From Halorubrum sp. 48-1-W (GTDB lineage Archaea; Halobacteriota; Halobacteria; Halobacteriales; Haloferacaceae), in NCBI RefSeq assembly GCF_003287355.1, contig NZ_QMIM01000012.1, positions 1 to 64,000 on the forward strand: a stretch of DNA of 64,000 nt, given 5' to 3'. Positions within the stretch are counted from its first letter, which is position 1, and each line of letters opens with the position of its first letter. Positions 7,997 through 17,155 of the stretch are shown in pieces. A model generated the notes under the pieces. It was not told the DNA's origin. It made no database searches and saw nothing but the letters and a program-made list of their open reading frames with translations. Made by a program: the position numbers and the translations under genes.

Positions 7997-9772
7997 TCAC
8001 CCCAACAGCAACGCGAACAGGGTGACGGCCGCCGTGAGCGTCAAGAACAGCACGCTCCGGCCGATCCCCGCCCGTATCTCGGCGTCGACGCCGGCGTTCG
8101 CGAGCAGCTGCCGCGGGTTCATCGCGACCCACTTCGCGCCGGCGACGAGCCGCATCGTCGCGCGGTCGACGGCGGCCCACCCCTCGGTGACGCCCCACAC
8201 CGACCACCGCCCAGCGTAGAAGGCGGCCGGGAACAAGACGGCGTCGACGTCGCGCATGTGGTGGGCGAGCCAGCCCAGCGGCCGCTTCAACGCGAAGAAG
8301 CCGACGAAGCCGGCGACGAGCAGGGCGGCGCTCTCGGTCAGGTGGCTCGTGCTGTAGGGGTGGAGCTCCGGCGCGACGATCGCGGTGAACGGCATCAGCT
8401 CGACGAGGTAGCCGTAGGTGAGCGGCGTGCCGAAGAAGACGCACGCTCCGCCGGCGAGCAGCATGCCGGCGGTCTGGAACGGCGTGGCGTCGTCGGGCGA
8501 CAGGGTCGCCGACCCGTGGAAGAAGACGTAGTAGCCGAGCTTGATGAACGACATGAACGTCCCGACGCCCCCGAGGATGAGCAGCCACCAGAGTAGCCCC
8601 TCGCCGAACAGGAGCTCGTAGTTGTGGATCTCGTGGGCGGAGTCGATCACCATCCCCTTCGAGATGAACCCGTTGAAGCCGGGCACGGCGGTAATGGAGG
8701 CCGCGCCGACGACGTACAACAGGAAGGTGAGCGGCATCACGCGCCAGAGGCCGCCCATATCGCGGATGTCCTGGACGCCGGTCCGGTAGATCACGACGCC
8801 GACCGCCATGAACAGCAGGCTCTTGTAGAGGACGTTGTTGAACAGGTGCGCGAAGCCGCCGGTGACGGCGAACTCGCCGACGGCGCTCGCGAGCCCGAGC
8901 CCCGCGAGCATGTACCCGACCTGCGCCTGGATGTGATACGACAGCAGGCGTCTGGGGTCGTACTGTAACAGCGCGAAGAACGCGCCGTAGACGGCCATGA
9001 ACCCGCCGAGGTACGCGAGCCACATGCCGCCCTCGGGAAACGCACGGTACATCACGTACACCGCGGTCTTGGTCGTGAACACCGAGAGGAACACCGACGC
9101 CGCCACGTGCGGGCGCGGGTAGGTGTCGGGCAGCCAGGAGTGCAGGAAGATGAACCCGCAGTTGATCCCGATCCCGATCGCAGCGAGGAGGGTCGCGGCC
9201 GGGTCGATCCCGGTCGTCCCCGAGAACAGGAACGTCCCGGCGTTCGCGAAGTGGACGACGACGGCCGCGAGCAGGACCGTCCCGCCCGTGCCGTGGAAGA
9301 GCGCGTAGCGGTAGCCGGCCCGCACCGCCGCGCCGCCGTACTGCCACACCAGCAGCGTGCTGGTGACCGCCATCAGCTCCCAGAAGAAGACCAGCGTGAG
9401 CCAGTCGCCGGCGTAAATCGTCCCCACCGTGGTGGCGACGTAGATCAACGCCAGCGACGTGACCCACTTCGGCGCGTCGCTGCCGTAGGCGTACAGCACC
9501 GCCGCAGTGGCGAGGAAGCCGACGACGACGCCCATCAGGAGCGAGAACTGGTCGACGTTGAAGAGGACCACGTCGAAGCCGAGGAACCGCGTCGCGAGGT
9601 GCGCCCCGGTCCCGCCGTCGCCGAGCAGGACCGCCTGCGCGAAGACGAACGCGGTCGCCAGCGCGCCGAGCGCGTGACCGACCGCGCGCGGGAGCGCGAG
9701 CACGAGCAACGAGGCCACGGCGACGACGAGGTACGGCGGGACCGCGGTCAGCACGGCGGTCACACCCGTCAT
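7997..9772 (-). CDS. Proton-conducting ND-type antiporter subunit, last gene of the Mrp operon
   Basis: A 591-residue polytopic membrane protein of the NuoL/M/N-MrpA/D superfamily. The conserved transmembrane Glu is Glu132 in LTLVFFWELMAVTS, and quinone-oxidoreductase-type loops follow (FNNVLYKSLLFMAVG, GFNGFISKGM). In Mrp complexes such subunits move protons or sodium across the membrane. The chosen ATG at 9772 overlaps the stop of the preceding subunit (ATGA). A longer frame upstream lies within that gene. Several late helices after residue 430 are consistent with a NuoL-like length. As this operon has no full-length MrpA, this subunit together with the DUF4040 protein may replace it. Confidence 0.88.
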   Translation of the reverse strand: MTGVTAVLTAVPPYLVVAVASLLVLALPRAVGHALGALATAFVFAQAVLLGDGGTGAHLATRFLGFDVVLFNVDQFSLLMGVVVGFLATAAVLYAYGSDAPKWVTSLALIYVATTVGTIYAGDWLTLVFFWELMAVTSTLLVWQYGGAAVRAGYRYALFHGTGGTVLLAAVVVHFANAGTFLFSGTTGIDPAATLLAAIGIGINCGFIFLHSWLPDTYPRPHVAASVFLSVFTTKTAVYVMYRAFPEGGMWLAYLGGFMAVYGAFFALLQYDPRRLLSYHIQAQVGYMLAGLGLASAVGEFAVTGGFAHLFNNVLYKSLLFMAVGVVIYRTGVQDIRDMGGLWRVMPLTFLLYVVGAASITAVPGFNGFISKGMVIDSAHEIHNYELLFGEGLLWWLLILGGVGTFMSFIKLGYYVFFHGSATLSPDDATPFQTAGMLLAGGACVFFGTPLTYGYLVELMPFTAIVAPELHPYSTSHLTESAALLVAGFVGFFALKRPLGWLAHHMRDVDAVLFPAAFYAGRWSVWGVTEGWAAVDRATMRLVAGAKWVAMNPRQLLANAGVDAEIRAGIGRSVLFLTLTAAVTLFALLLG

Positions 9773-11991
9773 GGCCGAGCCACCCCCTCCGGGAGCCGCG
9801 TGTCGACGATGAGCTCGATCAGCTCGAGGAAGCCCATCTCGTAGGGGATCACGCCGAGCAGGACGGCGAGACCCATCGCGGTGAGGATCGGTCCGAGGGT
9901 GAACCACGTCGACTCGCGTCCCCGGAGTGCCTCGAGCCCGCGCAGGTGGTCCCAGCCGCCCGGCGGCGGGCCGCCGTGGTGGTCGACCCCGTGGTCGTCG
10001 TCGTGGTGACCGGCGTCGTGGTCGTCGCCGTGGTGATCGTCACGGTCGTCGCCACCGGTGTCGACCCCGTGGTCGTCGTCGTGATCGGCCGGGTGGTCGT
10101 CGTCGTGATCGGCCGGGTGGTCGTCGTCGCCGTCGTGACCGGCGTCGCCTCGGCCGACCCCGAACGGGACGTCCGCGTCCGAGGGCTTCTGGTCGACCGC
10201 GTAGTCGCCCGTGTCGACCCGCTCGGCCGGCTCCGAGAAGTCCCGCTCGCTCGTATCGAAGTCCGGGCGGACCACACCCTTCTCGTCGGTCGGGAGGTCG
10301 TCGAGTTCGGCGTCAGGGATCTCCGAGTCGTCCGGAACCCCGGCGTCGTCGTCGGCCGTTGGCGACCCGTCGCTCCCGCCCGCGTCGCCTTCCACGCTCT
10401 CGACGACGTCGTCGACGTCGACCGCGTCGTCGTCGGTCTCGTCGTCACCGTCGGTCTCGTCGTCATTCTCGTCGTCACCGTCGGTCTCGTCGTCGTCGTC
10501 GGGACGGCCCCCGTCGGTCGACGCGTCGTCCGGGCGGCCCCCATCGGTCGCCGCGAGCGTCGACCGCCGCTCCCCACCCATCCGAAAGTCGACGAGCGGC
10601 TTCGCGTCGTGGTCCGCCTCCGCCTCGAAGAAGGCGGTGTAGATCACCGGCCAGAAGTACGCGACGTTGAGGACGCCCGAGAGCAGGAGCGCGCCGACGA
10701 GGTAGTAGGCGACGGGGGTCAGCTCCATCCCCATCCGCACCCCGCCTATCAGCATGTAGTACTTGCTCACGAAGCCGGCGAGGAGCGGGATCCCGGCCAT
10801 CCCGAGCGACGCGACGGTGAACGCGCCCATCGTCAGCGGCATCCGTTTCCCGATGCCCGCCATCTCCGAGATGTAGTCGGTGTGCGTCGCGACGTGGAGG
10901 TTCCCCGCACAAAAGAACAGGGTGAGCTTCATGAACGCGTGCGCCGGGATGTGGAGTAGCGCCCCGACGAGCCCGTACCAGCCGAAGAGGCCGAGCCCGA
11001 GCACGATGTAGCTCAACTGGCTCACCGTCGAGTACGCGAGCCGCTGTTTCAGGTGGTCCTTCCGCAGGGCGATGAGCGAGGCCGCCGTCAGCGTGATCGC
11101 GGCGACCGTCGAGAGCACCAGCCCGGCGGAGAAGCCGAAGGGAAGCGAGAGGTCGAAGACGAGCTCCGGCCCGAACACGTCGAGGACGACCCGCGAGACG
11201 CCGAACGCGCCGGACTTGACGACCGCGACCGCGTGGAGCAGTCCGGAGACCGGCGTCGGCGCGACCATCGCCTCGGGGAGCCACTGGTGGAGCGGCATGA
11301 TCCCGGCTTTCACGCCGAAGCCGATCGCGAGCAGAAAGAAGGCGAGCATCGCCAACCCGGGGTCGGCGCTCGCCAGCTCCCCGATGCCGCCGGCGGTGAA
11401 CGCGACGGTCCCCGTCAGCCAGTAGACCATGACGGTCCCGGCGAGGACGAGCACGCCGCCGCCGAACATCGTGTACGCGAGGTACTTCCGGCCGGCCGAA
11501 CGCGCCTCCGGCGTCTCGTCGTGGGCGACGAGCGGGTACGTCGCGATCGACAACAGCTCGTAGAAGACGAAGATCGTCACGAGGTTCCCCGCGAACGCGA
11601 TCCCCATCGTCGCCGACAGCGACACGGCGAACGCGGCGAAGTAGCGCGTCTGGTTGGCCTCCTCGAGCCCGCGCATGTAGCCGATGCTGTAAAAGGAGGT
11701 GACGATCCAGAGCCCGGACGCGAGGAACGCGAACAGCATCCCGAGCGCGTCCGCACGGAGCACGAACGCGATGTCGGGGAGGAGTTCGACGACGGTCCAC
11801 TCGAAGACGGTCCCCTCGAGCACGCGCGGGAGCATCGAGGCGACGATCGCGAACTTCGCGACCGCTGCGAGGACCGTCCATCCCTCGCGGACGTTCGGCG
11901 AGCGATACGACGCGACGATGAACACGGTCGCGACGAGCGAGACGAGGACGGCGAGCAGTGGACGTGGGTCCTGAACGATGGCTTCTGTCAT
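9769..11991 (-). CDS. ND-type antiporter subunit with a large Asp/His-rich insertion
   Basis: A 740-residue membrane subunit of the NuoM/MrpD type, with conserved Glu145 in IFVFYELLSIATYP and the lysine-bearing region GVKAGIMPLHQWLPEAM. Standard members are about 500 residues. Here residues 456 to 677 are a hydrophilic insertion between the last two membrane segments. The first part is almost all Asp, Glu, Thr and Gly. The last 60 residues carry at least 14 His in DDDH, ADH and DDHH repeats. A final helix follows (LGPILTAMGLAVLLGVI). The loop's composition suggests metal or proton buffering (inference). Its ATG overlaps the stop of the upstream subunit. Confidence 0.88.
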   Translation of the reverse strand: MTEAIVQDPRPLLAVLVSLVATVFIVASYRSPNVREGWTVLAAVAKFAIVASMLPRVLEGTVFEWTVVELLPDIAFVLRADALGMLFAFLASGLWIVTSFYSIGYMRGLEEANQTRYFAAFAVSLSATMGIAFAGNLVTIFVFYELLSIATYPLVAHDETPEARSAGRKYLAYTMFGGGVLVLAGTVMVYWLTGTVAFTAGGIGELASADPGLAMLAFFLLAIGFGVKAGIMPLHQWLPEAMVAPTPVSGLLHAVAVVKSGAFGVSRVVLDVFGPELVFDLSLPFGFSAGLVLSTVAAITLTAASLIALRKDHLKQRLAYSTVSQLSYIVLGLGLFGWYGLVGALLHIPAHAFMKLTLFFCAGNLHVATHTDYISEMAGIGKRMPLTMGAFTVASLGMAGIPLLAGFVSKYYMLIGGVRMGMELTPVAYYLVGALLLSGVLNVAYFWPVIYTAFFEAEADHDAKPLVDFRMGGERRSTLAATDGGRPDDASTDGGRPDDDDETDGDDENDDETDGDDETDDDAVDVDDVVESVEGDAGGSDGSPTADDDAGVPDDSEIPDAELDDLPTDEKGVVRPDFDTSERDFSEPAERVDTGDYAVDQKPSDADVPFGVGRGDAGHDGDDDHPADHDDDHPADHDDDHGVDTGGDDRDDHHGDDHDAGHHDDDHGVDHHGGPPPGGWDHLRGLEALRGRESTWFTLGPILTAMGLAVLLGVIPYEMGFLELIELIVDTRLPEGVARP
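9970..10560 (-). repeat. Low-complexity coding region for the Asp/His-rich loop
   Basis: The DNA for the insertion contains internal direct repeats, for example two adjacent copies of a 21-bp unit around 10076-10120 and several GTCGTC-rich runs near 10380-10500. These translate as repeated ADHDDDHP-like and DDETDGDD-like blocks. The reading frame is kept throughout, so the loop grew by in-frame duplication. Confidence 0.6.
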
Positions 11992-13586
11992 GCGAACACC
12001 TCCGAGAGGTACGGGTCGAGGAGCGTCTCGAACCCGGCCCCCGCGAAGCCGAGTCCGACCGCGACGAGCGTGACGGCGACGAGGACGGCGAGCGGCGCCG
12101 TCGGGACGGTTCCGGGCGCCGCAGCGTCGCCGTTCCCGCCGTCGGCGACCGCCTCGCCGTCCGACACCGTCTCGCCGGCGTCACGGTCCGGTCCGGCGAC
12201 CGGATCGACAGGACCGCCCGAGACGCCCCCTGCCGCGTTCTCGGGGTCGACGCCCGCGAAGTACAGCCGTTCTATCACCCGGGCGACGTACGCCAGGGTG
12301 AACAGGGTGCTGACGAGGATCACGACCGCGATCCAGATCCCGGCCGTCCCGCCGCCCGCGCCGGCCGACCGAACGGCGCCGAGCGCGATGTACCACTTGC
12401 CGAGGAACCCGATCGAGGGCGGGATCCCGACGAGCGCGAGCCCGAGCACGGCGAGCGCGCCCGTGGCGAACGGCGCCCGGCGGGCGAGACTCGAGAGGTC
12501 GTCGACACGACGCGCGCCGTAGCCGGCTGCGAGGAGCGCGAGGCCGAAGAAGAGCCCGAACTTCAACAGACCGTGGCCGATCAGGTGGACGATCCCCCCC
12601 AGTAACGCCGTCTCGTCGGCCATACCGACCGCGGCGGCGATCATCCCGAACTGCGCGACCGAGGAGTACGCGAACATCCGCTTGAGGTCGGACTGCATGA
12701 CCGCGAGGAGGGAGCCGGCGACGATCGAGACGCCGGAGACGACGAGGATCCCCGTCGTGATCGCGTCGTTGGCTGTGAGGAAGTCGACGGTGAACACGGA
12801 GTAGCTCACCCGGATCAACGCGTAGGCGCTGGCGGTCGAGACGAGCGCGGCGACGACCGTGGTCACCGCGTCGGGCGCGCGCTGGTAGGCGTCCGGCTGC
12901 CAGGAGTGGACCGGGAACAACGCGATCTTCAGCGCGAAGCCGGCCACGATGAAGGCGTACCCGGCCCGAACCAGCGGGTCGGTGTGGCTCGCCTGTTCGA
13001 CGATCTGGATACTCACGTCGGCCATGTTCAGCGTCCCCGTCGCGAGGAAGACGTAGCCGACGCCGACGAGGTACAGCGACGCGCCGACGGTCCCGACGAC
13101 GAGGTACTTCAACGAGGCGTACGCGCTCGCGCCCGAGCGGTCGGCCGCGATGAGCGCGTACGTGGTGAGCCCGACGATCTCGAGGAAGACGAACAGGTTG
13201 AACAGGTCGCCGGTGAGCGAGACGCCGACGAGCCCGCCGGTCAAGAGCAGGTAGGCGCTGTGGAAGGCGTTCCCGCGCGGACCGACCGCCCGCGAGAGGA
13301 CGAGCGTGGCCGCCGAGACGAGCGCGACGAGGAGGAACACCGCCGCCGACAGCTCGTCGGCGACGAGCTCGATCCCGATCGGCGGCGCGAAGCCGCCGAG
13401 CTCGTGGTCGAACGGTCCGGCCGTGTACACCTCGAGCGCGACCGCGACGGCCGACCCGACCACCCCGAGGGTCGTGACCGCCGCGACCGGCCAGCCGACG
13501 TCGTCGTACCACAGCCCGAAGGCGAGCGGCAGGGTCGCCGCCACGATGGGGACCGCGATCGACAGCGGCAACAACACGTCAGTCAT
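11988..13586 (-). CDS. Mrp antiporter subunit D (MnhD-like, proton-conducting)
   Basis: A 532-residue polytopic protein of the MrpD/NuoM-N type with conserved Glu136 in NLFVFLEIVGLTTYALI and the later ALKIALFPVHSWQPDAYQ motif containing the key Lys. It forms a proton or sodium channel half in the complex. I take MTDVLL at 13586 as the start, three codons inside the longest frame. It overlaps the mnhC stop by 8 bp, matching the tight spacing elsewhere. The C-terminal 60 residues include a polar Gly/Asp/Ala linker (near 12110-12230) before the last helix, a smaller relative of the insertion in the next subunit. Confidence 0.9.
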   Translation of the reverse strand: MTDVLLPLSIAVPIVAATLPLAFGLWYDDVGWPVAAVTTLGVVGSAVAVALEVYTAGPFDHELGGFAPPIGIELVADELSAAVFLLVALVSAATLVLSRAVGPRGNAFHSAYLLLTGGLVGVSLTGDLFNLFVFLEIVGLTTYALIAADRSGASAYASLKYLVVGTVGASLYLVGVGYVFLATGTLNMADVSIQIVEQASHTDPLVRAGYAFIVAGFALKIALFPVHSWQPDAYQRAPDAVTTVVAALVSTASAYALIRVSYSVFTVDFLTANDAITTGILVVSGVSIVAGSLLAVMQSDLKRMFAYSSVAQFGMIAAAVGMADETALLGGIVHLIGHGLLKFGLFFGLALLAAGYGARRVDDLSSLARRAPFATGALAVLGLALVGIPPSIGFLGKWYIALGAVRSAGAGGGTAGIWIAVVILVSTLFTLAYVARVIERLYFAGVDPENAAGGVSGGPVDPVAGPDRDAGETVSDGEAVADGGNGDAAAPGTVPTAPLAVLVAVTLVAVGLGFAGAGFETLLDPYLSEVFA

Positions 13587-14124
13587 CGCCCTCACCCCCC
13601 TCGCCGTTCGAACCCTCGCCCGGGAGCCCCGATCTCGGGGGCAGCGACCCCTCCTCGCGTAACAGCTCCCGGAGCGTGTCGGCCCGGAGCGTACCGTACT
13701 CGTCGTATATCCGGATACACAGCGCGAGCGCCACCGCGGTGAGGCTCACGCCGACGACGATGGCGGTGAGCACGATCACGTGCGGGAGCGGGCTGACGTA
13801 CGGTCCCTCCCCGCCCGAGTACACGATCGGGATCGCCCCGCCCTCGACGTACGCCGAGGCGATGAAAAGCAGGAATATCGCTGTCTGGAACAGGTTGAGG
13901 CCGATCACCTTCTTCACCAGGTTGGGGTTGGCGATCATCATGTAGAGTCCGATACAGAGCAACAGCGCGAACGTCACGTACGCGTGACGCGTCCCGAGCA
14001 CGTCGAGTACCGATCCGGCCGCGACCGACGATCCGGCCGCGACCGACGATCCGGCCGCGACCGACGATCCGACGAGCAGTTCGGCCACGGAGCGTGCGGC
14101 GGGTCCGACCGGGGGAAGCGTCAT
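13579..14124 (-). CDS. mnhC: Mrp antiporter subunit C (MnhC, NuoK-like)
   Basis: A NuoK-like small subunit with three helices: VTFALLLCIGLYMMIANP, then GLNLFQTAIFLLFIASAY, then VIVLTAIVVGVSLTAVALAL. The family usually has about 115 residues, and this one has 181. The excess is an N-terminal extension containing three copies of a GSSVAA hexapeptide, encoded by perfect 18-bp repeats, and a polar C-terminal tail. The N-terminal extension could be cleaved or simply tolerated. Its ATG overlaps the mnhB stop (ATGA), and its stop overlaps the next gene. Confidence 0.92.
   Translation of the reverse strand: MTLPPVGPAARSVAELLVGSSVAAGSSVAAGSSVAAGSVLDVLGTRHAYVTFALLLCIGLYMMIANPNLVKKVIGLNLFQTAIFLLFIASAYVEGGAIPIVYSGGEGPYVSPLPHVIVLTAIVVGVSLTAVALALCIRIYDEYGTLRADTLRELLREEGSLPPRSGLPGEGSNGEGGEGDD
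14012..14065. repeat. Three perfect 18-bp tandem repeats inside mnhC
   Basis: The unit GATCCGGCCGCGACCGAC occurs three times head to tail, followed by the first six bases of a fourth. The period of 18 keeps the reading frame and yields GSSVAA repeats near the N-terminus of MnhC. The identity of the copies indicates recent expansion. Confidence 0.95.
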
Positions 14125-14765
14125 CGCTCACCCCCGTCGGTGGCGACGACGTCGCCGTCGCCCGTCGCGTCGGCGCCCTCCTCGGGGCCCACCCGGTCGT
14201 CCTCGTCGACGAAGAGGTCGCGTTCGCCGGCGGACGACCCCGAGTCGTCGCCGTTGAAGCCGCGGGCGAGCACGAAGAACAACCCCATGAGCACGCCGCT
14301 CACGATGGCGGCGATGCCGACGATCTCCACGGCCTCCATCCCGTACTTCACCGGATCGAGGATCGGGATCGGCAACAGGTCGTACTGGAGGAAGGCACCG
14401 CCGAGCGCAACCGGGACCAACCCGATGGCGGCGAACGCGAGGGTCCCGCCGACCGCGAGCGCGACGACGACCGTGTTGGCGAGCCACTGGCGAGTGGCTT
14501 CGATGCCGAACGCGAAAGCGATCATGAAGACGACCGCGGCCATGATCGCGCCGCCCTGGAAGCCGCCGCCGGGCGAGCCGCCGCCGTGGAAGGTGACGAA
14601 CAGCCCGTAGGTGAACGCGAACGGCGAGACGACCTTCACCGTCGACATGATGACCTGACTCTCCGTGTACGGCGTCCCCTGTCTCGTCTCCGAGTCGAGC
14701 CGTCCGGAGCGGCGCGGCTCGGCCGGTTCCGATCGATCGACGTCGCCGTCGGGAGCGTCGCTCAT
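14121..14765 (-). CDS. mnhB: Mrp antiporter subunit B (MnhB domain)
   Basis: Residues about 35-175 form the MnhB membrane domain: VKVVSPFAFTYGLFVTFHGG with the family motif GGGSPGGGFQGGAIMAA, then further helices. The N-terminal 30 residues are polar, and the C-terminal 45 are an acidic tail (ERDLFVDEDDRVGPEEG), as usual for halophiles. The total is 214 residues. Start chosen at 14765, where ATGA overlaps the stop of the DUF4040 gene. Part of the nine-gene operon. In Mrp complexes this subunit packs against MrpA's C-terminal region, represented here by the preceding separate gene. Confidence 0.92.
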   Translation of the reverse strand: MSDAPDGDVDRSEPAEPRRSGRLDSETRQGTPYTESQVIMSTVKVVSPFAFTYGLFVTFHGGGSPGGGFQGGAIMAAVVFMIAFAFGIEATRQWLANTVVVALAVGGTLAFAAIGLVPVALGGAFLQYDLLPIPILDPVKYGMEAVEIVGIAAIVSGVLMGLFFVLARGFNGDDSGSSAGERDLFVDEDDRVGPEEGADATGDGDVVATDGGER

Positions 14766-15331
14766 GCGAACACCTCCCGTCTGAGGACGATGAGGGCAGC
14801 GATCCCGGCCGCGAAGACGACGACCGCCTCGCCGAAGGTGTCGAACCCGCGGAACGCGGCCAACACCGCCATCACGGTGTTCTCGACGCCGGTCTCGGCG
14901 TACGTCTCCGCGAGGTACCACTGGGTGACGTCGGGGTTGCTCCACACCGGCGCGTCCGCCGAGCCGACCGCCGGCACGTCGACCATGGTGACCGCGAGCC
15001 CGGCGAAGAGCAACCCGGCAGCCCCCGCTGCCGGGTAGTTCACCGACTCGAAGACGGCCTCGTGGTCGATCCGCGTCGTCTTCGCGAGCGTGAGGAGCAG
15101 GAGGATGGTCGTTACGCCGGCGGAGATGGCCGCCTCCGTCATCGCGACGTCGGGCGCGCGATAGAAGGTGTACAGCGCGGCCATCCCGAGGCTGTAGGCC
15201 CCGAAGACGATGACCGCGGCGAGTACGTCGCGCGCGAACGCGGTCGCGAGCGCCGTGAGCACGACGAAGACGAAGAGGCTCGCCTCGATGGCGGTGACCT
15301 GCGCGACGACGGGCGAGACGGTCCCCGTCAT
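14762..15331 (-). CDS. DUF4040 protein (MbhD/MrpA C-terminal-like subunit)
   Basis: A 189-residue membrane protein whose centre, DVLAAVIVFGAYSLGMAALY then RAPDVAMTEAAISAGVTT, is the DUF4040 signature. In bacteria this domain is the C-terminal part of MrpA; in archaeal membrane-bound hydrogenases it is the separate MbhD. Here it is an independent gene. The last third has another helix pair ending FGEAVVVFAAGIAALIVLRR, resembling MbhE, so the gene may combine MbhD and MbhE functions. ATGA overlaps occur at both ends of the gene. Confidence 0.88.
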   Translation of the reverse strand: MTGTVSPVVAQVTAIEASLFVFVVLTALATAFARDVLAAVIVFGAYSLGMAALYTFYRAPDVAMTEAAISAGVTTILLLLTLAKTTRIDHEAVFESVNYPAAGAAGLLFAGLAVTMVDVPAVGSADAPVWSNPDVTQWYLAETYAETGVENTVMAVLAAFRGFDTFGEAVVVFAAGIAALIVLRREVFA

Positions 15332-15657
15332 CGGCGCTCGTCCCCCTCCGTCCACGGCACGATCCCCTCCTCGAAGGCCGCCCGCGCGATGGCGTGGGCC
15401 GCCGTCGGGTTCGTCACGAAGATGAAGAACACCAGGAGCAGAGACTTGAATCCCGCGCCCTCCCAGCCGGCCGCGATCGCGACCGCCGCGAGCGTGAAGC
15501 CGGCCCCCAGCGTGTCCGCCTGCGAGGCGGTGTGCGCCCGCGAGTAGACGTCCGGAAGCCGGATCACGCCCGTCATCGAGACGAACGTGAAGAACAGCCC
15601 GAGCAGGCTGAAGGCGACGACCAGCGCGAGCCGTACCGGACCGATCGCGTCGATCAC
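15328..15657 (-). CDS. mnhG: Mrp antiporter subunit G (MnhG)
   Basis: A 109-residue, three-helix protein with the MnhG pattern MTGVIRLPDVYSRAHTASQA followed by DTLGAGFTLAAVAI. The R-L-P-D-x-Y-x-R-x-H-A motif is diagnostic. The C-terminus is short and polar. The ATG at 15657 overlaps the mnhF stop, and the gene's own stop overlaps the DUF4040 start. It is an essential small structural subunit in characterised Mrp complexes (family knowledge). Confidence 0.95.
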   Translation of the reverse strand: MIDAIGPVRLALVVAFSLLGLFFTFVSMTGVIRLPDVYSRAHTASQADTLGAGFTLAAVAIAAGWEGAGFKSLLLVFFIFVTNPTAAHAIARAAFEEGIVPWTEGDERR

Positions 15658-15959
15658 AGCACACCACCCCGCTCGACGGTGAACTTCGAGATGGCGATCG
15701 CCATCAGGAAGTTCAACAGCGCGTACACCAACGCGATGTCGAGGAACGTCGGTTCCGCGAGCGCGGCCCCGAGGATCGCGAGAATGACCACGGTGTTGGT
15801 CCCGAGCACGTTGACCGCGAGCACGCGGTCCTGCATCGTCGGGCCCTTCACCGCCCGGTAGAGCATCCCGATCGCGAGGACGACGAAGCCGGCGGCCACG
15901 ACAAGCAGGAAGTCGCCCACGGCGTAGCCGGCTGCGAGCGTCGTGTCGACGACGCTCAT
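15654..15959 (-). CDS. mnhF: Mrp antiporter subunit F (MnhF)
   Basis: A 101-residue protein with three helices and the MnhF motif YRAVKGPTMQDRVLAVNVLG, followed by NTVVILAILGAAL and a final helix ending FTVERGGVL. Overlaps by 4 bp at both ends show tight coupling with mnhE and mnhG. In characterised systems MrpF is a small subunit near the sodium path (family knowledge). Confidence 0.95.
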   Translation of the reverse strand: MSVVDTTLAAGYAVGDFLLVVAAGFVVLAIGMLYRAVKGPTMQDRVLAVNVLGTNTVVILAILGAALAEPTFLDIALVYALLNFLMAIAISKFTVERGGVL

Positions 15960-17155
15960 TCCGTCGTCACCCCCCCGGCGTCGTCGTCGTCGGCCGAGCC
16001 GTCCGCAACGGGGTCATCTTCCCCGCGCGTTCCGCCGTCGGAGCGCGCGCCGGGGTACTCCTCGGTCGCGTCCGGTCCCTGAAAGATCCCGATATCGTCG
16101 CGTTCGCGGGGGGTCGGGAGCCGCGCCGCCTCCCGGCCGTAGAAGACGAACCGGGTCCACCGCTCCAGCGAGCCGTCGAAGAGGCCCTCGCGGGCCCACG
16201 GGATGAGCGAGTGGACGTAGAGGTTCCCGTCGCGGGCGCGGACCGTGAGCGTCCCCGGCGTCAGCGTGATCGAGTTCGCGAGCGTCGTGACCGGGAGACC
16301 GCTACCGACGATCACGCGGATCCGGTTCAGCGTCGGGTCGATCGGTAGCCGCGGGTCGAGGATCACCCGCGCCACGACGAGGTTCGATTTGAGTATCTCG
16401 AAGAGCAAGACGGGGACGTACACCGCGCCGCGGAGCAGTCGGACGGGCGTCCGCGAGAGCGACGGGTCGGCGTCGAGGCTGATCCGCGAGAGCGTGATCG
16501 CGACGATCGCCGCGCTCGCGACGCCGCTCGCGAGGTCGAACCAATAGAGCGGGTCGCCGAGTGCGAGGTAGAAGGCGAGCGACAGCCCGAACGTCGCGGC
16601 GAAGCGGATCCCGGTCGCCTCCTTGCGGAGCCGCTCGCCGCGGCTCGGGCGGGTGACGGGAGCTTTCCTGACGGCGAGGTCGGTGCTCGAGAGCGCGAAC
16701 TCCAGCGGCTGGAGCAGCGTCGTGTTGCCGACCGGGGTGTACTCCGGGTCCAACACGACGGTCTCCGCGCCGTGCTCGTCGGCGTACGCCGACAGCTCCC
16801 GGACGTAATCGTCAGCCCCGAAGAGGTACTCGTCCGCGCCAACGACCGCGGTGACGACCTCCACGTCGTCGACGTCGGCGCCGTCGACGTCCGCGAGGTC
16901 GGCCTCGGCCCAGGTCGAGACGCGCTCGAGCAACCGGTCGATCGACGTCTCCCGGTCGGCTATGTCCGGATCGTCGCGGCGCCACGTGGCGAAGACGACG
17001 AAGTGGATCGACGAGAACTCGCCGTCGGCCGCCGACTCGACGAGGTGAGTGACCGTCGCGCGAAGCGTCGGCGTCGATTCGACGGGGACCACGACCGAAC
17101 CGCGCGTCGGAGCCGGTTCGTCGGCGTCAGCCACCCGATTCACCTCCCGGGGCAT
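15956..17155 (-). CDS. mnhE: MnhE fused to an N-terminal universal-stress-like domain
   Basis: First gene of the antiporter operon. Residues about 18-165 form a soluble alpha/beta domain that starts GSVVVPVESTPTLRATVTHL and ends GAETVVLDPEYTP, resembling a UspA-type nucleotide-binding fold without the classic C-terminal glycine loop. Residues about 185-350 are MnhE: FAATFGLSLAFYLALGDPLY, then VYVPVLLFEILKSNLVVARV and NSITLTPGTLTVRARDGNLY. Bacterial MnhE has only the second part (about 160 residues). An acidic tail of about 50 residues follows. The start may also be an internal GTG a few codons downstream. The cytoplasmic domain could sense a nucleotide or regulate transport (inference). Confidence 0.85.
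   Translation of the reverse strand: MPREVNRVADADEPAPTRGSVVVPVESTPTLRATVTHLVESAADGEFSSIHFVVFATWRRDDPDIADRETSIDRLLERVSTWAEADLADVDGADVDDVEVVTAVVGADEYLFGADDYVRELSAYADEHGAETVVLDPEYTPVGNTTLLQPLEFALSSTDLAVRKAPVTRPSRGERLRKEATGIRFAATFGLSLAFYLALGDPLYWFDLASGVASAAIVAITLSRISLDADPSLSRTPVRLLRGAVYVPVLLFEILKSNLVVARVILDPRLPIDPTLNRIRVIVGSGLPVTTLANSITLTPGTLTVRARDGNLYVHSLIPWAREGLFDGSLERWTRFVFYGREAARLPTPRERDDIGIFQGPDATEEYPGARSDGGTRGEDDPVADGSADDDDAGGVTTE

Follow-up and report, generated by a model that had tools for sequence, protein, structure and literature searches.

We identified a long acidic loop between the last two membrane helices of a haloarchaeal Mrp antiporter subunit. Sequence comparisons indicate that its histidine-rich end is a separate, selectively kept module fixed next to TM14, while the spacer before it behaves as a length-variable repeat region. 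Our preferred reading, to which we assign a probability of roughly 0.4, is that the loop may be a pH-responsive polyelectrolyte through which cytoplasmic pH regulates antiport. The analysis started from a window of 64,000 nucleotides of Halorubrum sp. 48-1-W, by which we mean the whole stretch of DNA analysed.

Host gene and operon

On family evidence, the open reading frame at 11991..9769 on the minus strand is an ND-type subunit of an Mrp (Na+/H+ antiporter) complex, with antiport function assigned by that family. The 740-residue product matched NF005561 with an E value of 8.4e-287 and 952.6 bits against a curated cut-off of 718, and it contains the Pfam domain Proton_antipo_M (PF00361; E 4.9e-57). 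Using its AlphaFold2 model, in which we read 14 membrane helices, Foldseek returned MrpD, MrpA and MbhH, which share the 14-TM MrpD/ND fold; together, these matches bear out an earlier note, made from the sequence alone, that had proposed an ND-type antiporter subunit. The surrounding operon encodes homologues of MrpB, C, D, E, F and G along with the C-terminal part of MrpA, as in Mrp (CPA3) systems, and Mrp complexes trade Na+ (or K+) for H+ (PMC7419157, PMC9568556). The features are as follows, all on the minus strand.

7997..17155 (-): mrp operon with E, F, G, DUF4040 (MbhD/MbhE), B, C, D, the loop-bearing subunit and a third ND-type subunit (family and domain matches)
9769..11991 (-): Mrp antiporter ND-type (MrpA-N/MrpD-like) subunit, 740 aa, carrier of the loop (NF005561, Pfam, fold match)
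10627..10713 (-): TM13, residues 427-455 (AlphaFold2 model, high confidence here)
9907..10626 (-): whole TM13-TM14 loop, residues 456-695 (AlphaFold2 model and the short linker of relatives)
10573..10611 (-): conserved anchor HDAKPLVDFRMGG, residues 461-473 (KP motif in 158/161 loops; P465, G472 and G473 invariant in A1)
10321..10572 (-): acidic, repeat-built spacer of variable length, residues 474-557 (tandem repeats; D/E count against loop length, rho 0.95)
10150..10320 (-): conserved central block IPDAELDDLPTDEKGVVRPDF...TGDYAVDQKPSDADVPFGVGR, residues 558-614 (YAVD..PSD motif in 96/161 loops)
9976..10149 (-): His/Asp tract with 14 His, residues 615-672 (composition and orthologue comparison)
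9940..9975 (-): Gly/Pro hinge GGPPPGGWDHLR, residues 673-684 (GGPPxGW-like motif in 121/161 loops)
9850..9906 (-): TM14, residues 696-714 (AlphaFold2 model)

Several further observations concern the operon. The MrpE-like protein (window 15956-17155) has about 190 residues ahead of its MNHE domain that match no Pfam family and are spanned by NF009295. The MrpC reading frame (window 13579-14124) opens with a repeated GSSVAA stretch followed by the conserved part, and its true start may lie further in. The mrp locus on Halorubrum trapanicum contig 13 (L030 1-11096) is 99.98% identical over 11.1 kb to that on Halorubrum salsamenti scaffold 8 (L031 1-11095), and both genomes hold a second, diverged mrp copy elsewhere (L036, L024); the shared locus looks like a recently transferred extra operon. 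Among the control genomes of the NF005561 search, Haloferax volcanii gave no match above the cut-off and may lack a subunit of this type.

Architecture of the loop

The parsed loop of about 240 residues contains 70 Asp, 16 Glu, 16 His and 16 Lys+Arg, with 14 of the His lying within the 60 residues that precede GGPPPGGW. Residues 461-670 mostly have pLDDT below 50 in the AlphaFold2 model, and the loop is accordingly predicted to be disordered. Tandem repeats in 9972-10555 have periods of 6, 9, 12, 15, 18, 24, 27 and 30 bp, all multiples of three; one 24-bp unit forms a perfect array of 2.4 copies at 10072-10129. The earlier note had described a 222-residue insertion between the last two membrane segments, acidic and then His-rich (at least 14 His in the last 60 residues) and built from in-frame repeats. 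The His count, the repeat periods and the modelled helices agree with this description, and some 220 residues is a fair size given the short linker of non-haloarchaeal relatives at the same place; its coordinates, 9970-10560, cover most of the loop and fall short of the full extent.

The motifs that punctuate the loop could be taken as a docking segment, in which a second Mrp subunit, or else a regulator, would be bound through the KP-LGG anchor, the central YAVDxxPSD block and the GGPPxGGW hinge, with the His contributing to the interface. Their recurrence speaks for such a role, the anchor being nearly universal among the 161 loops, the hinge present in 121 and the central block recurring across diverse haloarchaea in 96. 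However, many lineages have the His tract but not the central motif, and the central block has no confident structure in the model of the single chain; we regard docking as quite improbable. In 11 loops from some other haloarchaeal lineages, GYAxxHEG replaces the YAVDxxPSD block.

Conservation across haloarchaea

A scan of the genome collection for the gene yielded 79 loci; further loci were drawn from diverse genera, with orthologues chosen by BLAST on the core. The gene was present in 51 of 52 genomes in the genus search and in 332 of the 391 genomes of the class sample; same-genus orthologues shared identical tails with named Halorubrum records. Loop ends were set by a pattern that failed at first for 25 loops, many of which were regained for the tree with a second, looser pattern. 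In the parsed set, loops measured 176-256 residues in Halorubrum-like orthologues and 43-236 in the others, and every readable haloarchaeal loop was longer than the non-haloarchaeal linker. Of 134 diverse haloarchaeal orthologues, 123 had 4 or more His among the 60 residues that precede TM14. In a comparison with alkaliphily made by eye, His was kept in the loop of the alkaliphile Halorubrum alkaliphilum (L034) and in those of Natronomonas MAGs (L044, L047). The earlier note had allowed that orthologues might lack the loop or show random length variation with no His enrichment; instead, they keep both loop and enrichment. Since the cluster is kept across nearly all haloarchaea, it probably senses or binds something, be it protons or metal ions.

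Among relatives of the same phylum outside the haloarchaea, 19 of 20 have a short linker only, and the twentieth (L269), with a short loop and little His, nests within the haloarchaeal tree. These comparisons show, at the level of sequence, that the TM13-TM14 insertion is typical of haloarchaea. On an approximate core-sequence tree (FastTree, outgroups included), the state of having at least 4 His changed 9 times, and several lineages have lost the tract, among them L129 and L130, whose long loops have 1-2 His near TM14. The simplest reading would be an early haloarchaeal gain followed by several losses, with parsimony counts leaving the direction unfixed.

Selection on the His tract

Disorder, repeats, variable length and the several losses of the tract would all suit a passive halophilic linker, in which slippage of repeats produced a soluble, disordered and acidic spacer and His is no more than tolerated. 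The acidic part does follow length alone: the number of D+E tracks loop length with a rho of 0.95. His number does so weakly (rho 0.48). His frequency, measured by distance from TM14, reaches 27% at -30..-20 and falls to about 1% beyond -70, Asp being high throughout. An Asp codon becomes an Asn codon by a transition and a His codon by a transversion, so drift predicts Asn to be at least as frequent as His, and predicts His in the spacer too. The His:Asn ratio is 17.5 in the His tract versus 0.68 in the spacer, where Asp is similarly abundant. On this ratio and the position profile, we rejected the idea that the His arose by drift from Asp codons. The corresponding loop of the MrpD paralogue, furthermore, is also acidic, and its median His count is 1 per 60 residues. 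A passive linker could thus account for the spacer, whereas the His tract does not fit it, and as an account of the whole loop we consider it unlikely. It is the position profile, the codon contrast, the length correlations and the His-poor paralogue loop that lead us to treat the tract as a module of its own. In some Halorubrum (L020), the C-terminal loop of the neighbouring MrpD subunit is itself His-rich at the corresponding position (DGHGAGDHGDGHDGDHGDGHDGGHAEGGHDDGHNAG), which may represent a parallel gain.

His pairs were over-represented at distances of 3 and 6 (z 13.9 and 9.3), and no single fixed His motif was seen in this spacing analysis. Fixed spacing was rejected as evidence of a metal site, since DDH-type repeats themselves yield spacings of 3 and 6.

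Histidine-rich proteins in the genome and metal binding

We sampled 1.50 of the genome's 3.58 Mb, where a crude home-made caller predicted 1192 genes, some spurious frames included. Only 4 of the encoded proteins reached at least 10 His per 60 residues, and the Mrp loop ranked second. Given this count, its His density exceeds chance; His frequency is 2.0% in the first 0.70 Mb sampled. The other three are a MoCF_biosynth domain protein, a Chlor_dismutase-ABM fusion with the architecture of PitA, and a Cdc48d-like AAA ATPase whose C-terminus is His-rich. In the MoCF_biosynth (molybdopterin-binding) protein (L239 709-1374), a stretch of 60 residues close to the N-terminus contains 17 His. PitA and Cdc48d are provisional names that follow domain order and tail, and we know of no metal role for the tails of these two proteins.

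As a disordered stretch rich in His and Asp within a membrane transporter, the loop also matches the general description of metal-binding His-loops of the ZnT/ZnuA type. An alternative is that Zn2+, Ni2+ or a similar ion binds to the tract on the cytoplasmic side, as a means of controlling the antiporter or of storing metal, like the cytosolic His-loops of the ZnT/MTP zinc antiporters. A comparable charged loop, rich in D, E and H, occurs in the zinc-binding protein ZnuA of this genome. PitA and Cdc48d, to which two of the other three strongest His-rich proteins are related, are prominent contaminants of metal-affinity preparations in Haloferax (PMC6985049), and the cytosolic His-loop of ZnT7 binds two Zn2+ (PMC10409766). 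On account of the ZnuA loop and the Haloferax contaminants, the Mrp loop is likely able to bind metal in the test tube, an ability that says nothing about its task. The substrates of Mrp, however, are Na+/K+ and H+, the tract shows no fixed metal motif and, in the window, no Cys, and the flanking ORFs checked beside the operon include no metal gene. We consider a metal-responsive loop possible, though somewhat unlikely.

Membrane side

Taking the 14 model helices in order across 59 orthologues, Lys+Arg averaged 15.5 on the inner and 3.2 on the outer loops. We infer that the TM13-TM14 loop faces the cytoplasm because it lies on the positive, K+R-rich side, in agreement with the lateral helix of MrpA, which is cytoplasmic and falls on the same side by helix parity. 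This lateral helix has been described (PMC9568556) and runs from TMH15 to TMH16 (PMC7419157).

Discussion

In the pH-responsive reading that we prefer, His embedded among Asp would have a raised pKa, and several charges would be gained or lost within a narrow range at the near-neutral pH of the cytoplasm. The titrating tract would buffer H+ at the cytoplasmic face, and the change in net charge would alter the attraction of the loop to a basic WERR-type collar before TM14, such that antiport activity would follow cytoplasmic pH. The acidic spacer would keep the chain soluble in molar KCl and may hold counter-cations too. In its favour we also count the wide retention of the tract, its fixed position, the codon contrast, the weak tie of His number to loop length and the cytoplasmic side. 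We place this reading slightly above that of a metal-responsive loop on the grounds that Na+/H+ exchange is the task of the complex, that we saw no fixed motif of ligands and that the alkaliphile looked at retains its His; with no fixed motif, and with distances as in DDH repeats, titration fits better than one defined metal site. Against it, the composition is equally fit for metal binding, the losses in L129, L130 and other lineages suggest that the tract is not essential everywhere, and charge interactions of this sort would be screened in high KCl. The earlier note had suggested that such a loop could bind metal ions or buffer protons or cations at the channel mouth; the single-chain model gives no placement of the disordered loop relative to the ion paths.

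More tentatively, and with the odds somewhat against it, we propose a clade-wide device acquired early in haloarchaea, in which the Mrp antiporter would be gated by a cytoplasmic His/Asp loop reading pH or metal, with no known counterpart in other Mrp or complex I-like systems. A search of the mostly open-access literature found no paper on a His-rich loop of haloarchaeal Mrp. Mrp-type modules are related to complex I-like proton pumps and have ion paths that are still debated (PMC9568556). The natural series of length-varied loops, with some losses of the His tract and 19 of 20 outgroup relatives devoid of the loop, suits the testing of antiport regulation as well as the study of disordered polyelectrolyte loops in molar salt. 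In addition, the codon comparison indicates selection for a specific residue within part of a low-complexity region.

Among known systems, the subunit shares its 14-helix core fold with MrpD and the N-terminal domain of MrpA in CPA3 (PDB 6z16, 7qru, 9a6h) and with MbhH (6cfw), the match to 9a6h_B having a TM-score of 0.79 by target over 463 columns. The MrpD and MbhH chains, however, have about 490-505 residues in all and no room for a long TM13-TM14 loop, whereas the subunit described here has about 220 extra. By its score of 952.6 bits it is a member of NF005561 (PRK07234.1-1, putative monovalent cation/H+ antiporter subunit D), but that model has 569 positions and its best stretch ends at residue 523, which leaves the His tract outside its description. 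The low-complexity His-rich segments of haloarchaeal PitA and Cdc48d, both of which bind metal columns in Haloferax (PMC6985049), are of the same kind, yet they form a linker or C-terminal tail in soluble proteins with no part in membrane transport. The zinc-proton antiporters ZnT7 and MTP1 likewise have a cytosolic loop that is rich in His, mostly disordered and set between two TM helices (PMC10409766); they belong to an unrelated transporter family with Zn2+ as known substrate, and their loop lies between TM4 and TM5.
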